A stretch of 32,424 bases of DNA from contig NZ_LN889813.1 in assembly GCF_900009145.1 (NCBI RefSeq), positions 234,757 through 267,180 of the forward strand, written 5' to 3'. The position numbers and the translations under genes are program-made. Each line of letters starts with the position of its first letter. The stretch's first letter is position 1. Below the pieces are notes generated by a model. The model was not told the origin of the DNA and did no database searches. It saw only the letters and a list, made by a program, of their open reading frames with translations. The stretch comes from Planktothrix tepida PCC 9214. Lineage in GTDB: Bacteria; Cyanobacteriota; Cyanobacteriia; Cyanobacteriales; Microcoleaceae. Shown here piece by piece: positions 2,947 through 11,129 of the stretch.

Positions 2947-5496
2947 GTGTCTGAACTGAAACCAACTATGTTACCTAACGAAATTCGCGCCCGCAGTGTA
3001 CAGTTTCTCCATCAACAAGCAGAAATCTATTTTAATCAAGGACAATTCGAGGATGCGATGAAGGCTTGCAACCAGTTGTTGCAGATTCAGTCTGATTATG
3101 CACCCGGTTGTAAACTGATGGCGGATATCTTACTCCGACAAGGGAAACTGCAAGAGGCGCAGCAATGGTATACCCGGACGTTACAAGTTCAACCTAATTG
3201 GGCCGAAGTTCATGCTAATTTGGGCAGTCTGTACGCTAAAGCGCAACAATGGCAACAGGCAATTGCGTGTTATGAGAAAGCTGTCACCCTAAAACCGAAT
3301 TTTGCAGGTGCTTATCGGAATTTAGCCAGAGTTTGGACACAACTCAACGAACCGAAAAAATCAGCACAAGCCCTATATCAAGCCTTGACCTTAGAACCCA
3401 ATCAAGCAACGGCAGAAGAATATTTTAACCTCGGCCATCAGTTAGGGCAGCACGGTGATGTCAAAGCCGCAGAAGCTTGTTATCGGACAGCAATTCAACT
3501 CAATCCTAATTTAACCGCAGCCCATCAAAGTTTGGGAACCCTTCTTCAAGGGCAAGGTAAAGCTCAGGAAGCCACACAAATCTATCGCCAAGCCATTGAG
3601 TTAAATACTCCTCAAGCCCCCTCAGACACCTTAGCCGCAGCCACAGCCAGAACAACCGTGACAGTCGCTTCACCTCAAGATACCTTAGCGGGAGCGATGC
3701 AACAACCCATGGTGAAAAATGGGACAACACCTGTAAGCAATCATCCTAGTAATCCTCAAACCTATTTAAAGCAAGCTCAAGCTTATTGTACCTTAAAAGA
3801 ATGGGATCAAGCGATCGCAGCTTGTCAAAAAGCGTTACGATTACAACCGGATTTAGCGGAAGCGTATAAAATTCAAGGCAATGCCCTGCAAATTTTAGGG
3901 GAAATGTCGGCGGCGGTTCGCTGTTATTCCAAGGCCTTAGAAATTCAACCGCAATATCCCGAAGTTTATGCCAATTTGGGAAGTTTATATGCTCAAGAAG
4001 AACGATTAGAAAAAGCAGCTTCTTATTATCAACAAGCGGTTAATTTAAAACCTGATTTTGCTGGGGTTTATCGCAATTTTGCCAAGGTTTTAACCCAGAT
4101 GGGGCAATTAGACCAAGCTTCGCAATGCTTGGAAAAAGCCTACAGTTTAGAACCAGAAAAAGCCACACCCGAAGAACATTTTAATTTAGGAAATACCCGC
4201 TTTAAACAAGGTCGATTAGACGAAGCGATCGCAGCTTATCAACAAGCCTTGAAATTAAATCCTCAGTTAGCGGGAGCCTATTATCAGTTAGGTCAATTAT
4301 ATTCTACAAAAGCAGAACTAGATGCAGCGATTCAGGCTTACCAAAAAGCCTTAGAATTAGAACCATCCCGCTTAGAATTTTATTATGGGTTTGCGGATTT
4401 CTTCAGCCGTCAAGAATGTTGGGATGACGCCATCAGAGTTTATAACCAAATTTTAGGATTAGATGCTAATCAAGCCGTTGCTTATTATAAAGTCGGGGAG
4501 ATTTTTAATCGTCAGTGGCGGTTAGAGGAAGCCGTTAACCTGTATCAGAAATCCATTGCTTTAAATCCTAAATTAGTATCTTCCTATTATGGATTAGGAA
4601 AAGTTTTAGTTAAGCAGGAAAATTGGCAAGATGCTGTTCAAGTGTTGCGCCAAGGAATACAAATGAATCCCAGTGGAGATGCAGAAGCTTATAAAGGTTT
4701 CGGAGATGCACTTGCCAAAATTGGGGAACGAGAAGAGGCAATTAAAGCTTATCAAAAATCTGCCGAACTTGATAGTAATAATGCCGAAGTTTATCAAAAA
4801 TTAGGGGATTTACTGCGAGATCAGGAACGATTTGAAGAAGCCATTATTGCTTATAATCGTTCTATTGAAATTGATCCAACTGTGTTTTGGACACAAAACA
4901 ATTTAGCCGATATTTTCTTTAAACAAGAACGGTGGGAAGATGCAATTTCAGCTTATCAAAATGCGATCGCTTTAGATTCTAGCTATTCGTGGTCATACAA
5001 TAGTTTAGCTGATGCCTTAGTTAAATTAGAACGCTGCGAAGAGGCAATTCCTGCTTATGAACAAGCCATTAAACTCAATCCTCAGTTTCCTTGGTCTTAC
5101 TATAATTTAGGGGAAGTTTTAACTCAATTAGAACATTGGGAAGAAGCAGTTGTAGCTTATCGAGGCGCAATCAAAGTTCAGTCTGACTTACCAAATATTC
5201 AGGAAAAACTCGCCGATGCGTTGAGAAATCGAGCTAAATTAGATTTACAGGAATCCTTGGGATATTATTATCAAGTGATTCAAGAAAACCCCGATCATGT
5301 TGCTGCTTATCATAAAGCTATTGAGATTAAACCCGATGATCCCAAATTGTATATCCAATTAGCGAATACCTTAGTTAATCATAATCATTTAGATGGAGCA
5401 ATTGTCTTCTATCAGATGGCATTGCAATTAGATCCAGAGCATCCCGAAATATCGCAAAAATTAGAGGGAATTGTCGAAAAAAAAAAGCTAGGTTAA
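2947..5496 (+). CDS. Long TPR-repeat protein, probable scaffold; ends at an A10 tract
   Basis: The 849-residue protein consists almost wholly of TPR repeats with no catalytic domain. A Thr/Ala/Pro-rich stretch near residues 222-270 separates two arrays. The array before it and the one after it align block by block (HANLGSLYAK matches YANLGSLYAQ, AGAYRNLARV matches AGVYRNFAKV), so the gene contains an internal duplication of several TPRs. TPR superhelices bind peptides or partner proteins; the role here is inferred as a scaffold for glycan enzymes. The start is GTG; an ATG seven codons later is an alternative. The ORF closes with E-K-K-K-L-G just after a run of ten A. The next frame continues without a start codon into a GT2 enzyme, so the stop may be bypassed (see 5463-5487). 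If so this is the N-terminal part of a product of about 1,550 residues. Confidence 0.9.
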   Translation: MSELKPTMLPNEIRARSVQFLHQQAEIYFNQGQFEDAMKACNQLLQIQSDYAPGCKLMADILLRQGKLQEAQQWYTRTLQVQPNWAEVHANLGSLYAKAQQWQQAIACYEKAVTLKPNFAGAYRNLARVWTQLNEPKKSAQALYQALTLEPNQATAEEYFNLGHQLGQHGDVKAAEACYRTAIQLNPNLTAAHQSLGTLLQGQGKAQEATQIYRQAIELNTPQAPSDTLAAATARTTVTVASPQDTLAGAMQQPMVKNGTTPVSNHPSNPQTYLKQAQAYCTLKEWDQAIAACQKALRLQPDLAEAYKIQGNALQILGEMSAAVRCYSKALEIQPQYPEVYANLGSLYAQEERLEKAASYYQQAVNLKPDFAGVYRNFAKVLTQMGQLDQASQCLEKAYSLEPEKATPEEHFNLGNTRFKQGRLDEAIAAYQQALKLNPQLAGAYYQLGQLYSTKAELDAAIQAYQKALELEPSRLEFYYGFADFFSRQECWDDAIRVYNQILGLDANQAVAYYKVGEIFNRQWRLEEAVNLYQKSIALNPKLVSSYYGLGKVLVKQENWQDAVQVLRQGIQMNPSGDAEAYKGFGDALAKIGEREEAIKAYQKSAELDSNNAEVYQKLGDLLRDQERFEEAIIAYNRSIEIDPTVFWTQNNLADIFFKQERWEDAISAYQNAIALDSSYSWSYNSLADALVKLERCEEAIPAYEQAIKLNPQFPWSYYNLGEVLTQLEHWEEAVVAYRGAIKVQSDLPNIQEKLADALRNRAKLDLQESLGYYYQVIQENPDHVAAYHKAIEIKPDDPKLYIQLANTLVNHNHLDGAIVFYQMALQLDPEHPEISQKLEGIVEKKKLG
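5463..5487 (+). promoter_or_regulatory. Candidate -1 frameshift/slippage site (SD-like AGAGGGA + A10 with A AAA AAG)
   Basis: AGAGGGA (5463-5469) resembles a Shine-Dalgarno. Eleven bases later the heptamer A AAA AAG (5481-5487) lies in the zero frame as codons AAA-AAG, at the end of a run of ten A (5477-5486). This matches the published E. coli dnaX element: an upstream SD about 10 nt away and the same heptamer. A -1 shift enters the frame of the downstream GT2 gene directly (next codons GCT AGG TTA AAT). The zero frame stops seven bases after the heptamer, at 5494. A +1 A insertion by transcriptional slippage on A10 would have the same effect. I see no strong downstream stem, only a weak TAGG/CCTA pairing. 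Whether it functions is inference. Confidence 0.6.
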
Positions 5497-7610
5497 ATCC
5501 CTACTTTTCCTCTGCTCAATCTCAATCGGAATATGAACAACTCTATCAGGCGTGGTTAAAGTACAATACTCCTACGCCTGAAATTCTTAAGCAACAGGCT
5601 GAGAATACTAAAACCTTCAGGTATCAACCCCTAATTAGTATTATTATGCCTGTTTATAATCCACCTGAAATTTTTCTGCGAGAAGCGATTGAATCCGTTT
5701 TAAATCAAAGCTATCCTCATTGGGAATTTTGTATTGCTGATGATGCCTCTCCCTCTCTCCATATTAAACACATCTTAGAAGAATATCAACAACAAGATAG
5801 CCGAATTAAAGTTATTTTTAGAACTCAAAACGGTCATATTTCGGCAACTTCTAATTCAGCCTTAGAGTTAGCAACGGGGGAATTTATAGGGTTATTAGAT
5901 CATGATGATGTTTTAACTCCCGATGCTTTATATGAAGTGGTGAGTTTATTAAATCAGAATCCAGCCGCTGATATGATTTATTCCGATGAGGATAAACTGA
6001 ATGAAAAGGGCGAATTAACAGGTCATTTCTTTAAACCGGATTGGTGTCCTGATTCCTTTTTGTCTCGGATGTACACCTGTCATTTCGGAGTTTATCGACG
6101 TTCTATTATTCAGGAAATAGGAGGCTTTAGAATTGGATATGAAGGCAGCCAAGACTATGATTTAGTCTTGAGATTTACCGAAAAAACCGATAAAATTTTT
6201 CATATTCCTAAAATTCTCTATCATTGGCGAATTCATAACAGTTCTGCCGCCGGAGGAACTGAAGCAAAACCCTATGCTTATGAAGCAGCAAAACGAGCGT
6301 TACAAGATGCAATTGACCGTCGAGGAGAACCCGGAATTGTTAAAGATGTTTCGATTTATCTAGGACATTATCTTGTCCGCTATAAAATTTTAGATTACAA
6401 ACGAGTGAGTATTATTATTCCCACAAGAGATTTAGGAGAAATCTTAAATCGCTGTTTGGAATCTATCTTTACTCTTAGCATTTATCCTGATTATGAAGTG
6501 ATTGTCATTGATAATGGCAGTACAGAAGAGGAAACTCAGGAAATTTTAGAGAAATGGCAAGAAAAAGAACCAACTCGGTTTAGATATTATGCTTTAGATA
6601 TTCCGTTCAATTTCTCTAAAATCAATAACTACGCTGTACGTCAAGCAACTGGGGATTATTTGCTATTGTTAAATAATGATACTGAAGTGATTCATCCTGA
6701 TTGGATTGATGCCATGGTTGAACAAGCCCAACGACGTTCGATTGGTGCGGTGGGTGCGTTATTACGGTATCCTGATAAAATTGTTCAACACGCTGGTGTT
6801 GTGGTGGGAATTGGTCATTTTGCAGCCCATAGTCACCGCATGGCATCGGAAACAGACCCCGGATATTATGGTCAAGTTATTTCTATCAGTAATTATTCAG
6901 CAGTTACCGCAGCTTGTTTGATGTGTCGGCGAGAGGTATTTGAACAAGTGGGGGGGTTTGATGAACAGTTAGCCGTTGCTTATAATGATGTAGACTTTTG
7001 CTTAAAACTGGTTGAACAAGGCTATCGGAATATTTATCTTCCTCACGTTGTTTTATATCATTATGAATCTAAAAGTCGAGGTTATGATACAACGCCAGAT
7101 AAGTTAGAACGATTTATGCAGGAAGTTACTATAATGCGACAAAGATGGCAACATTATGTTGATTATGATCCCTGTTATAATCCTAATTTAACGTTATCGA
7201 GTTCTAATTATGGATTAAGGCAATTTGCTGAGGTAAAAATTAGCGATGTGTCTCTAAAACTTGATGACCAAGTGTTAGAGAATTGTTCAATTGATGAACC
7301 CGAAATTAAAATTTATACGGGAATCAGCGAAATTCGGTTTAAAGGATGGGTACTTGGACAACAAGAGAAAGTAACGGCTGTTCAAATTATTGGGAATCAC
7401 GCTCAAGTGATTAAGGAAATTCCCGCTAATTTTTCCCGTCCTGACGTTGCTATTCTGCATCCTGAAAACCCCCATTCAGAATTGTGTGGTTTTGACGAAA
7501 CCGTTGAAATAACAAATCTGTCTAATCAAACAGAATTGTTACTTCAAGCTGTTCTAAACGAAAGAACTTATGCTAAATTTGGAACAGTTAAACTAAAAAT
7601 TAATGCTTAA
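5487..7610 (+). CDS. Tandem-domain GT2 glycosyltransferase (two GT-A domains) with C-terminal beta domain; no proper start codon
   Basis: Two family 2 glycosyltransferase domains follow each other. The first has LISIIMPVYN, then DHDD (residues 85-88 counted from the ATG at 5646). The second has VSIIIPTRD, a DNGS motif, NND at 343-345, and GGFDE with YNDVDFCLK. Such double GT2 proteins occur in O-antigen/exopolysaccharide loci and may add two sugars (rhamnosyltransferase-like). Residues 530-654 form an extra, probably beta-rich domain with FKGWVLG and RPDV. The first ATG, at 5646, falls inside the first beta strand of the Rossmann fold, so it cannot be a natural start. The frame is open upstream to the A10 tract and encodes the expected extension (PTPEILKQQAENTKTFRY), but has no ATG, GTG or TTG between 5487 and 5645. 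Either it is made by frameshifting from the TPR gene or it has lost its own fusion. Confidence 0.88.
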   Translation, partial: ARLNPYFSSAQSQSEYEQLYQAWLKYNTPTPEILKQQAENTKTFRYQPLISIIMPVYNPPEIFLREAIESVLNQSYPHWEFCIADDASPSLHIKHILEEYQQQDSRIKVIFRTQNGHISATSNSALELATGEFIGLLDHDDVLTPDALYEVVSLLNQNPAADMIYSDEDKLNEKGELTGHFFKPDWCPDSFLSRMYTCHFGVYRRSIIQEIGGFRIGYEGSQDYDLVLRFTEKTDKIFHIPKILYHWRIHNSSAAGGTEAKPYAYEAAKRALQDAIDRRGEPGIVKDVSIYLGHYLVRYKILDYKRVSIIIPTRDLGEILNRCLESIFTLSIYPDYEVIVIDNGSTEEETQEILEKWQEKEPTRFRYYALDIPFNFSKINNYAVRQATGDYLLLLNNDTEVIHPDWIDAMVEQAQRRSIGAVGALLRYPDKIVQHAGVVVGIGHFAAHSHRMASETDPGYYGQVISISNYSAVTAACLMCRREVFEQVGGFDEQLAVAYNDVDFCLKLVEQGYRNIYLPHVVLYHYESKSRGYDTTPDKLERFMQEVTIMRQRWQHYVDYDPCYNPNLTLSSSNYGLRQFAEVKISDVSLKLDDQVLENCSIDEPEIKIYTGISEIRFKGWVLGQQEKVTAVQIIGNHAQVIKEIPANFSRPDVAILHPENPHSELCGFDETVEITNLSNQTELLLQAVLNERTYAKFGTVKLKINA

Positions 7611-7670: not shown

Positions 7671-10600
7671 ATGCTATCTAAATCTACCAACCTCCAAACC
7701 GCTACAAATTTATTTGAAGAAGCCAATCAACTCAAACAAGCGGGTCAACTTCAAAACGCAATTATTTCCTATCGTCGTGCTGCACAATTAAACCCGAATT
7801 TTCCTTGGATTTATCATAATTTAGGTGAGGTGTTGGCAGAAAATGGTCAATTATTAGAAGCAATGCAAGCGTTTCAGCAAGCGGTTAAATTAAATCCTGA
7901 TTCTGCTTGGTCACAATATCAGTTAGCAGAAGTTTTCTTAAAATTAGGAAATTTACCCAATGCAATAGAAAGGTTAACACAAGCGATCGCCATTAACCCC
8001 TATTCTCCTGAATTTTATAATAGTTTAGGTAACGCCTTATTTAAACAGGGTGACTTAGAACAGGCGATTACTAATTATCGGAAAACAATTGAACTAGATC
8101 CAGAAAATGCGATCGCTTATCAATATTTAGGAGAAGCATTAGCTCAACAGGGTGAACTTGATGAATCGCTCACTTCCTGTCAAAAAGCCATTGAGCTTAA
8201 TCCTAATTTAGGAGATGTGTATCAAATTTTAGGAACAGCATTAGTCAAAAAAGGGTTATTTCAAGAAGCATTAAATATTTTATTAGAAGCATTAGACTTT
8301 AATCAAAAATCGCCTAAAATTTATCATGCTCTAGGAGATATAGCAGTTCATTTTCAACAATGGAATAAAGCCATTGACTATTATTCTCAAGCGATTCAGC
8401 TTAAACCCAATGTACCTATCTTTCATCACAATTTAGGGAACGTTTACGCTCAACTCTATCAATGGGAAGATGCGATCGCTGCTTATTCTCAAGCCATCGC
8501 CATCAATCCTGAGTCAGCCGATTGTCATCAAAGTTTTGCAGAGGTTTTAGCTAAATTAGAACGTTGGGATGCTGCGATTTCTTCCTATTCCAAAGCCTTA
8601 GAATTAAATCCTGATTTAACCAATATTTATCCTCATTTAGCAGAAGCATTAAAACAGCGAGGAACCCCCGCCGATTTAGAAAAAGCAAATCAATATTATC
8701 AAAAAGCTATTGAATTTAATGCTGATGATCTGGACGCTTATGAAATGCTGCTAAAAACTCAACCCAATAATTTAGAATTGTGTTGGAAATATGCCAATTT
8801 GTTATGGAGTAAAAATCAGCGTGAACAAGCTTTGATTTATTATAAAAAAGTCAAAGAAGCTAACCCCCAAGATTTTGAAATGTTAGTAAAATTAGGGGAA
8901 GCTTTTGTAAGGATGAGTCAATTTGATGACGCGATCGCTATTTACAATAAAGCTTTAGAAATTAACCCTAACTCAGCCGATGTTTACCACCGCTTAGGGG
9001 AACCATTAGAAAAAAATGGTCAACTGGAAGAAGCTGCTAAAACTTATCAAAAAGCTATTGAATTAAACCCTCACTTTTTTGGTTCCTACCATAATTTAGG
9101 GGATATTCGACGCAAACAAAACAAGGTTGAGGAAGCTGTTGCTGCATATCAAAAAGCAACCGAACTCAATCCCCATTTTCACTGGTCATATCATAATATT
9201 GGGGATATGTTGCTTGAACAACCGGATCGCCTCGATGAGGCGGCGGCGGCTTATCAAAAAGCGATCGCAATTAATCCCCATTTTGCTTGGTCATATCAAA
9301 ACTTAGGAACGGCTCTGCTCAAACAAGGAAAAATCGAGGAAGCGATTACAGCTTACCGAAGAGCAGGTGAACTAGATCCTGTTTTTAAATTTGATGTGAA
9401 AAGTATTCAAGATATTTTACTCAAAAAAGCTTTAGTTGCTGATCATTTGTATAGCTTGTGGGTCGCTGATAATTTCCCCAGAGAAGCTGATCTCAAAAAG
9501 ATGGCTGAAACTCTAGAAATCTTCCGTTATAAGCCATTGATTAGCATCATTATGCCTGTCTATAATACACCTACTTATTTTTTACGGGAAGCCATTGATT
9601 CGGTTTTAAATCAAGTTTATCCTGACTGGGAATTTTGTATTGCGGATGATTCATCAACAGATCCTCATGTTAAAGAAATACTAGAAGAATACGTTGCAAA
9701 AGATTCTCGCATTAAAGTCGTTTATCGCACCGAAAACGGTCATATTTCTAAAGCATCTAACTCTGCCTTGGAATTAGCAACGGGAGAATTTATTTCTTTA
9801 TTAGATCATGATGATACCCTCACGCCAGATGCGTTGTATGAAGTGGTATTACTTCTAAATCGTTATCCTGATGCCGATATGATCTATTCCGATGAAGATA
9901 AATTAAGTCCTGATGATCAACTCATCAGTCCTTTCTTTAAGCCAGAATGGTCTCCCGAATCATTTTTCTCCCGAATGTATACTTGTCATTTAGGAACTTA
10001 CAGACACTCAATTATTAAAGAAATTGGGGGTTGGCGAATTGGTTATGAAGGAGCGCAGGATTATGATTTGGTTTTAAGATTTACAGAAAAAACTGAAAAA
10101 ATTTACCATATTCCTAAAATTCTCTATCATTGGCGGATGCACCCGGGATCGGCAGCAGGAGGAACAGAAGCGAAACCTTATGCGTATCTAGCCTCGCAAA
10201 AAGCGTTACAAGATGCCATAGATCGACGGGGTGAGAAAGGAGAAATTCAAGGAATTCCTGGTTTTTTAGGGCATCATTTAGTTCGTTATGAAATTAGCGA
10301 ATACAAGCGGGTTAGTATTATTATTCCAACGAGAGATTTAGGTAAAGTTCTGGATCGCTGTTTGGAATCTATTTTTACTAAAACGGGTTATCCTAACTAT
10401 GAAGTGATTTTGATTGATAATGGCAGTGTGGAAAGCTATACAGCCCAACTGATTGAGCAATGGTATCAGAAGGAACCCGAACGGTTTAAATGCTATCGAT
10501 TAGATATTCCGTTTAACTTTTCTAAAATCAATAATTATGGGGTGAGCCAAGCAACAGGAGATTATTTACTGTTTTTAAATAATGATACAGAAGCCATTAC

Positions 10601-11129
10601 ATCTGACTGGCTTAATGCTATGGTTGAGCAAGTTCAAAGACCTGCTATTGGAGCCGTTGGAGCTTTATTATTATTCCCAGATAACACAATTCAACACGCT
10701 GGCGTGATCATGGGATTGGGCGGTGTAGCAGGTCATCCCTATTATAATATGCCTCAAACTCCAGGGTACTTTAGTAATGTGATTGGCTTAAATAATACTT
10801 CAGCCGTTACAGGAGCTTGCTTAATGTGTCGGCGAGATGCCTTTGAGCAAGTGGGAGGATTTGATGAGGAACTAACGGTTGCTTACAATGATGTCGATTT
10901 ATGTTTAAAATTACTCACTCAAGGTTATCGAAATCTCTACTTACCTCATGTGGTTTTGTATCACCATGAATCTAAAAGTCGGGGTTATGAAGATACGCCA
11001 GAAAAAAAAGAACGGCTGGGTCGAGAATCAAAAATTATGGAAAGTCGTTGGCAAAAGTTTATTGATAACGATCCCTACTATAGCCCTCATTTAAGCCGTG
11101 AGTTTCAAGACTATCGAATCAAAGTCTAA
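7671..11129 (+). CDS. TPR-GT2-GT2 fusion glycosyltransferase
   Basis: The 1152-residue product joins a TPR array (about residues 1-590) to two GT2 domains in one frame. Domain A starts at PLISIIMPVYN near 622 and has DHDD at 712-715. Domain B starts at VSIIIPTRD near 881 and has NND ending at D972, then GGFDEELTVAYNDVDLCLK. It is a close paralogue of the pair 2947-5496 plus 5487-7610: long segments such as YDLVLRFTEKT and GGTEAKPYAY are identical. It lacks the beta-rich tail and ends after DYRIKV. Its intact architecture is the best guide to what the frame-split neighbour should look like. A probable role is cytoplasmic sugar transfer to a lipid- or protein-linked acceptor; the sugar is unknown. 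Two consecutive GT-A modules suggest two transfer steps, or one catalytic and one accessory domain. Confidence 0.92.
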   Translation: MLSKSTNLQTATNLFEEANQLKQAGQLQNAIISYRRAAQLNPNFPWIYHNLGEVLAENGQLLEAMQAFQQAVKLNPDSAWSQYQLAEVFLKLGNLPNAIERLTQAIAINPYSPEFYNSLGNALFKQGDLEQAITNYRKTIELDPENAIAYQYLGEALAQQGELDESLTSCQKAIELNPNLGDVYQILGTALVKKGLFQEALNILLEALDFNQKSPKIYHALGDIAVHFQQWNKAIDYYSQAIQLKPNVPIFHHNLGNVYAQLYQWEDAIAAYSQAIAINPESADCHQSFAEVLAKLERWDAAISSYSKALELNPDLTNIYPHLAEALKQRGTPADLEKANQYYQKAIEFNADDLDAYEMLLKTQPNNLELCWKYANLLWSKNQREQALIYYKKVKEANPQDFEMLVKLGEAFVRMSQFDDAIAIYNKALEINPNSADVYHRLGEPLEKNGQLEEAAKTYQKAIELNPHFFGSYHNLGDIRRKQNKVEEAVAAYQKATELNPHFHWSYHNIGDMLLEQPDRLDEAAAAYQKAIAINPHFAWSYQNLGTALLKQGKIEEAITAYRRAGELDPVFKFDVKSIQDILLKKALVADHLYSLWVADNFPREADLKKMAETLEIFRYKPLISIIMPVYNTPTYFLREAIDSVLNQVYPDWEFCIADDSSTDPHVKEILEEYVAKDSRIKVVYRTENGHISKASNSALELATGEFISLLDHDDTLTPDALYEVVLLLNRYPDADMIYSDEDKLSPDDQLISPFFKPEWSPESFFSRMYTCHLGTYRHSIIKEIGGWRIGYEGAQDYDLVLRFTEKTEKIYHIPKILYHWRMHPGSAAGGTEAKPYAYLASQKALQDAIDRRGEKGEIQGIPGFLGHHLVRYEISEYKRVSIIIPTRDLGKVLDRCLESIFTKTGYPNYEVILIDNGSVESYTAQLIEQWYQKEPERFKCYRLDIPFNFSKINNYGVSQATGDYLLFLNNDTEAITSDWLNAMVEQVQRPAIGAVGALLLFPDNTIQHAGVIMGLGGVAGHPYYNMPQTPGYFSNVIGLNNTSAVTGACLMCRRDAFEQVGGFDEELTVAYNDVDLCLKLLTQGYRNLYLPHVVLYHHESKSRGYEDTPEKKERLGRESKIMESRWQKFIDNDPYYSPHLSREFQDYRIKV

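Follow-up and report, generated by a model that had tools for sequence, protein, structure and literature searches.

A tract of ten adenines as a candidate programmed slip site between a TPR protein and a double glycosyltransferase in Planktothrix

The window analysed here, a stretch of 32,424 nucleotides, comes from the 6.78-Mb genome of Planktothrix tepida PCC 9214 (contig NZ_LN889813.1, positions 234,757 to 267,180), a member of a genus of bloom-forming cyanobacteria, and all positions given below, including those of the surrounding gene cluster, are window coordinates. On its forward strand, a gene for a tetratricopeptide-repeat (TPR) protein runs into ten consecutive adenines (A10, 5477..5486), behind which a double family 2 glycosyltransferase (GT2) follows in the -1 frame. 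The split between the TPR and GT2 parts at A10, with an open -1 frame leading across it, is real, and with a probability of roughly 0.8 the tract at this seam is a site of programmed slippage which would yield two products, a free TPR protein and a TPR-GT2 fusion. How the locus is laid out, that it is conserved in the genus and that selection acts on the -1 reading can be read from the sequences themselves; that both proteins are made, and that both are useful, we infer. Slippage of the RNA polymerase on A10 is somewhat likelier to be the main source of the shift, with -1 ribosomal frameshifting on the heptamer A AAA AAG, helped by an upstream GAGG, next in rank; the two are not mutually exclusive and can act together.

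Two readings that meet at one tract

The zero-frame TPR gene extends on the forward strand from a GTG at 2947 to 5496 and encodes 849 amino acids with Pfam TPR matches; its start is unsure, as the GTG stands right behind a stop codon and an in-frame ATG follows seven codons on, at 2968. The gene ends with GAA AAA AAA AAG CTA GGT TAA. Within this ending the tract holds A AAA AAG (5481..5487) in the zero-frame phase that an earlier note on this DNA had described, and the Shine-Dalgarno-like (SD-like) AGAGGGA, which that note had placed 11 nucleotides ahead of the heptamer, was found there at 5463..5469, its GAGG core (5464-5467) lying 13 nucleotides upstream. The same note had also pointed to a nearby zero-frame stop, and the TAA at 5494..5496, which terminates the free TPR product, does lie close downstream, at a spacing of six bases from the heptamer instead of the seven given there.

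The -1 reading (5481..7610) is open from the heptamer into the GT2 gene and up to 7610, as had been claimed, and consists of a linker and two GT2 stretches, followed by a C-terminal part without an assignment, the fusion product computed from the coordinates measuring about 1,554 amino acids. The linker (5487..5645) would be read only after a shift, and its 53 codons are confirmed to contain neither ATG, GTG nor TTG, so that the open -1 frame of the window offers none of these start codons between the zero-frame stop and 5646. The first ATG of the GT2 frame (5646..5648) is residue 56 of the -1 product, three residues inside a PF00535 match that begins at residue 53, and it is not thought to be a start; the earlier placement of this ATG in the first Rossmann strand holds as far as its position within the domain is concerned, the strand itself being located through the Pfam match. 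An annotation that follows open reading frames (ORFs) would split the gene and begin its GT2 half inside the domain. The C-terminal part (7218-7610, residues ~580-709 of the -1 product) is without a Pfam match; it is covered in full-length relatives, and matches of the neighbouring paralogue stop near residue 580.

In the model proposed here, a message read without a slip would end two codons past the tract (EKKKLG, stop) and yield the free TPR protein, whereas the fusion (EKKKARL...) would be reached if the mRNA carried one A more or if the ribosome moved back by one base. The loss of one A would give EKKS and a stop, which is a TPR-only protein again. The free TPR chain would perhaps act as a scaffold, a partner or a brake, and the fusion would be a glycan-building enzyme of the surrounding cluster.

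Conservation within Planktothrix and the state of its relatives

The junction was searched for in 59 genomes, the source genome included, which made it readable in that genome and in eight other Planktothrix species, each represented by one genome; a tenth Planktothrix (G004), in which the gene is broken at contig ends and the junction is unassembled, was dropped. In all nine assembled junctions A10 together with GCTAGGTTAA is identical, as is AAAAAAAAAAGCTAGGTTAA, and the in-phase heptamer, the GAGG core and the zero-frame stop are kept, AGAGGGA being altered to AGAGGCA in a single species. The alignment of orthologues that had been proposed as a check on the A tract, its phase and the SD core thus finds each of them conserved in Planktothrix. 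The stop-to-stop frame of the TPR gene spans 850-938 codons in the nine species, and 34 of its last 36 nucleotides are invariant, which ties for the best of 835 windows; they also hold the second-longest invariant run of the gene, at 21 nucleotides.

Beyond the zero-frame stop, the stretch up to ATG 5646, an ATG that is itself present in all nine species, varies from 140 to 209 nucleotides in length, with differences that are multiples of three. Its -1 frame contains no stop in any of the nine, whereas one of the other frames has 2-3 stops and the remaining one 6-13. The ratio of nonsynonymous to synonymous change (dN/dS) is 0.20 in the linker (computed over 43 shared codons, from the 35 usable pairs among 36) compared with 0.14 in a 654-codon core of the -1 reading, and judged by these substitution patterns the linker is under purifying selection as a -1 frame protein, so that the shifted frame shows both features looked for in a recoded gene, in being kept open and selected as protein. 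Possible start codons occur in the linkers of five of the nine species, with no site common to more than two of them. The linkers of the eight other species (loci L031-L035 and L113-L115) also carry, in frame, one or two copies of a dispersed palindromic repeat with the core AGCCCTNAAGGGCTTACTAC, altered in some copies, which is translated as RSEAFTPHSPEGLTT-like units; the window's own linker is without it. The exact core was counted 34 times in the source genome, 101 times in G001, 128 times in G002 and 29 times in G005.

The length of the tract is equally fixed. Among 15 groups of A or T runs of at least six in the aligned region, four exceed six, and of these four A10 alone has the same length in all nine species; one of the eleven groups with a maximum of six is likewise of equal length throughout. 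Neither A11 nor A8 was found at the junction in the nine species. In raw counts the pattern A10G occurs at two sites in the 6.78-Mb genome and its reverse at three. The other A10G, which is intergenic and lies in no stop-to-stop frame longer than 60 codons, was compared in four further copies: the one in the nearest sister (G002) is still A10, and three have decayed, the tract being interrupted in G008 and G007 as well as in a second copy in the source genome.

The state of the gene outside the genus was examined in 20 full-length relatives, obtained from a family-wide search of 61 genomes and a scan of genome contigs; left out were the partial copies at contig ends in G012 and G033 and the locus L047, whose best segment ends at residue 580 of a match listed to 708. 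TPR and GT2 form one ORF in 19 of the 20, with 17 fused genes within the family, which we take to be the Microcoleaceae, and two elsewhere or unplaced (L037, L056); the remaining one is split (G030). Since 19 of 20 outside relatives are fused, the break is best regarded as derived, and most simply the fused gene would be ancestral, would have been broken in Planktothrix and would then have been frozen there. Fused orthologues lacking the A tract, which the earlier note had named as evidence against its claim, do exist in six of the 20 relatives, and they lie only outside the genus and not within Planktothrix, which speaks for a derived break and not for an error.

The seam sits directly behind the last TPR helix, the position at which these six relatives have no A run. 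An A run of eight to ten is found in 13 of the 14 relatives with a lysine-rich, KILPKK- or VIEKKN-like ending at the seam, the exception being the second copy in G025, with A6. Elsewhere in their ORFs the same 14 relatives carry 20 runs of eight or more A against about 40 in shuffles, a comparison of related rows to which little weight is attached. Two single-contig genomes of another genus (G018, G023) have A10 over the same codons, GAA AAA AAA AAT, with the fusion in the zero frame; one A more would lead to an immediate stop, and one A fewer to a stop three residues on. The split relative (locus L157, G030:C280) has A10 about 190 nucleotides ahead of the GT2 core where its sisters have A8-A9; it is split in the direction opposite to that in Planktothrix, and as its genome is a draft of about 540 contigs, an error is possible. 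In a tree of 30 GT2 cores, Planktothrix forms one clade (100/100) with its sister group left unsettled. A further reading, which we put forward tentatively and hold to be possible more than probable, is that the seam's A tract is an old switch between two products which the family has kept through a change of the default product. The A10 encoded in Planktothrix would give the free TPR protein, with the fusion coming from slippage, while in G018 and G023 the encoded tract would give the fusion, and slipping in either direction the free TPR protein. If that were true, selection would hold the slip site and the mixture of proteins, and not the reading frame.

Polymerase slippage, ribosomal frameshifting and the rival explanations

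It has to be noted that several findings weigh against A10 as a programmed two-product site. In synonymous shuffles that keep the amino acids and the gene's own codon use fixed (300 per species), A10 arises at EKKK in 54-82% of cases, because of which the tract alone is unsurprising; the idea of a tract beyond the expectation from amino acids and codon use was abandoned, and lysine codons could partly account for it. Only the absence of revertants among nine species with one genome each suggests that the free TPR protein is needed: a single extra A would restore the fused gene, and none of the nine has it. The relatives live in the fused state, into which a single added A would put Planktothrix outright. 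The region beyond the tract also contains no convincing 3' stem-loop, the fold in the window's own sequence having a z score of +1.5; downstream folds of the nine Planktothrix species range from z -2.1 to +1.9 with no stem-loop, and a consensus fold of seven of the nine shows one two-sided change among 22 pairs. What is surprising is the fixed length, the frame and the conserved -1 reading, and the frozen length is the stronger argument for the programmed slip site.

As regards the agent of the slip, the reading that we somewhat favour is that RNA polymerase slippage would produce a mixed pool of mRNAs (A9, A10, A11 and so on) that is translated in the ordinary way, as in Thermus dnaX and Citrobacter tssM1. 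Consistent with that, A10 is a coding homopolymer of at least nine A or T, the kind looked for in transcriptional slippage, conserved in all nine species. According to PMC1088944, many genomes avoid A runs from nine A on, a length that A10 exceeds, and runs of 8-10 A in Nostoc insertion sequence (IS) elements are likely slippage sites. The A8-A10 seams kept in several codon phases point the same way, as do the opposite shift needed by the split relative G030 and the fact that in Planktothrix both non-fusion frames stop within three codons of the tract; the count of two A10G sites in 6.78 Mb may be added to these. What polymerase slippage alone leaves unexplained is the conserved GAGG.

That element is accommodated by the second candidate, a mainly dnaX-type -1 ribosomal frameshift, which we hold to be a serious contender of somewhat lower probability and in which the ribosome would slip on A AAA AAG with the help of GAGG and of a single tRNA-Lys(UUU). 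The in-phase heptamer and GAGG recur in all nine junctions, GAG is the invariant codon in only three of the 49 conserved Glu columns of the TPR gene, and the anti-SD sequence CCTCC is present in the source genome; the spacing of GAGG falls within the range of 6-17 nucleotides given in PMC4066793, which speaks for the presence of the element only. The sole tRNA-Lys found is tRNA-Lys(UUU), with no CUU anticodon in the loci of the 44 tRNA matches (scoring covered 150 of 604 first-look candidates), and this is the condition held responsible in PMC5009743 for AAG being slippery in E. coli. On the other hand, the tract is longer than the heptamer requires and occurs in other codon phases in other genera, which suits a process blind to phase, and the conserved G of AAG doubles as the first codon base of the -1 frame and is therefore no independent evidence for a ribosomal shift. 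Moreover, the stem-loop expected for such a shift is missing: a weak possible hairpin on the forward strand (5483..5508, z -2.0 to +0.4), in which the tract end AAAAG(C)TAGG pairs with a downstream CCTACTTTT in nine species, in one of them in altered form, is not a convincing stimulator and may only reflect the conserved KARLxPYF reading. Because the stem-loop was tested for and did not appear, the signal is not of the full dnaX type. The dnaX likeness proposed earlier accordingly survives in the heptamer, the conserved GAGG, the anti-SD sequence and the tRNA, and fails at the 3' stem-loop; more broadly, the use of the -1 frame from the tract into GT2 is supported, and the ribosomal mechanism is not singled out, A10 being a classical polymerase slippage site as well.

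The remaining explanations dispense with a programmed site. Homopolymers are prone to indels, and an indel in the tract may have broken the fused gene in an accident that is tolerated, with slippage making enough fusion and the free TPR protein as waste. Fusion being the rule among the relatives outside the genus speaks for such an accident, as does G030, where the same tract seems to have been broken a second time and independently, and rescued frameshifts have been described in Blochmannia (PMC3017870); the length should then drift, however, and the nine species show no A11 or A8 while the other A10G of the genome has decayed, so that we consider this explanation unlikely. Two separate genes, with GT2 starting at ATG 5646 or by re-initiation, would agree with the presence of this ATG in all nine species, but it lies within the PF00535 match, no SD-like sequence was seen by eye directly ahead of it in the rows of the nine species, and selection acts on the preceding linker as a -1 protein, all of which makes separate genes highly improbable. 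Nearly the same holds for phase variation, in which the length of the tract would decide from cell to cell whether the glycosyltransferase is on or off. In some bacteria, surface-glycan genes are indeed switched by homopolymers in this manner, but an on/off tract should show both states, and the variation in length between isolates that marks a contingency locus was not seen in the nine genomes, one per species and every one of them A10. Least probable is an error of sequencing or assembly in the homopolymer. The 454 method misreads homopolymers. Two strains in a study of the genus were sequenced with it (PMC5259702); against this, the tract is identical in nine assemblies, the zero-frame stop and the linker are conserved, and two of the nine genomes carry strain names, PCC 9631 and PCC 11201, for which the same study gives Illumina sequencing at about 150-fold. 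Conservation, the Pfam position, the selection on the linker and the decay of the other A10G were the grounds for setting aside a sequencing error, phase variation and a separate start of GT2.

Gene neighbourhood and known systems

The neighbouring gene (7671..11129, forward strand) is a paralogue in which Pfam matches confirm the earlier description of the same TPR-GT2-GT2 architecture in one ORF, with TPR and two GT2 stretches, and it has no A10 tract. Both belong to a cluster from 64 to 20262 that comprises a TPR-GT61 gene (64-2829, from Pfam matches), TPR-GT2-GT2 twice, a TPR-methyltransferase gene, and STELLO-type and sulfotransferase-like genes, and on account of these neighbours the sequence suggests a surface-glycan cluster. 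If both products are made from the seam, slippage would dose a glycan-building enzyme against its own free scaffold. The graded series of genes that are fused without a tract, fused with a tract and split with a tract appears well suited to a study of the origin of programmed slippage and of the part that the RNA polymerase or the ribosome plays in it.

No report of slippage for this TPR-GT2 gene was found among the literature matches listed, and the main text of two surveys (PMC3711429, PMC4066793), as far as it was available, contains none of the terms tetratricopeptide, TPR and glycosyltransferase, a listing in their supplements being possible. A two-product arrangement made by slippage is already known for dnaX and for tssM1, and the TPR-GT2 gene would be a new case of it. 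The heptamer of E. coli dnaX is A AAA AAG, and A9 in Thermus thermophilus dnaX is a site of transcriptional slippage. The Planktothrix seam shares with the E. coli gene this heptamer and the single tRNA-Lys, and with both the E. coli and the reversed dnaX layouts a short product ending just past the site and an upstream SD-like element. It differs in belonging to an unrelated gene, in having A10 instead of the bare heptamer, in the 3' stem-loop that was not found here and, compared with E. coli, in its reversed arrangement, the long product of Planktothrix being the one that needs a shift. Such reversed layouts, in which tau comes from the shift and the stop of gamma stands right behind the site, are described for dnaX itself in PMC5009743, for example in a candidate from Chlorobium.

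With Thermus thermophilus dnaX the seam has in common the long A run and the near stops in the other frames, a layout that is shown by the seam of G018 and G023; in Planktothrix, by contrast, it is the short form that the templated frame encodes, and its slippage is a prediction. The poly(A) frameshifts known from insect symbionts such as Blochmannia resemble it in that the frame is broken in an A tract while the gene is otherwise selected, and such frameshifts are sometimes kept between species (PMC3017870); Planktothrix differs in being free-living and in the great rarity of A10G in its genome. In tssM1 of Citrobacter rodentium, transcriptional frameshifting on A11 was reported, with both length forms and their ratio needed; in that gene, as at the Planktothrix seam, a zero-frame stop stands behind the A run, and slippage restores its full length (PMC4256274). 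The tssM1 case concerns another protein family and another organism, and Planktothrix, known from sequence alone, additionally conserves an SD-like element. By analogy, the TPR-GT2 seam would work like a reversed dnaX or like tssM1, in which the short form ends at the stop behind the A run and the long one is recovered by slippage.

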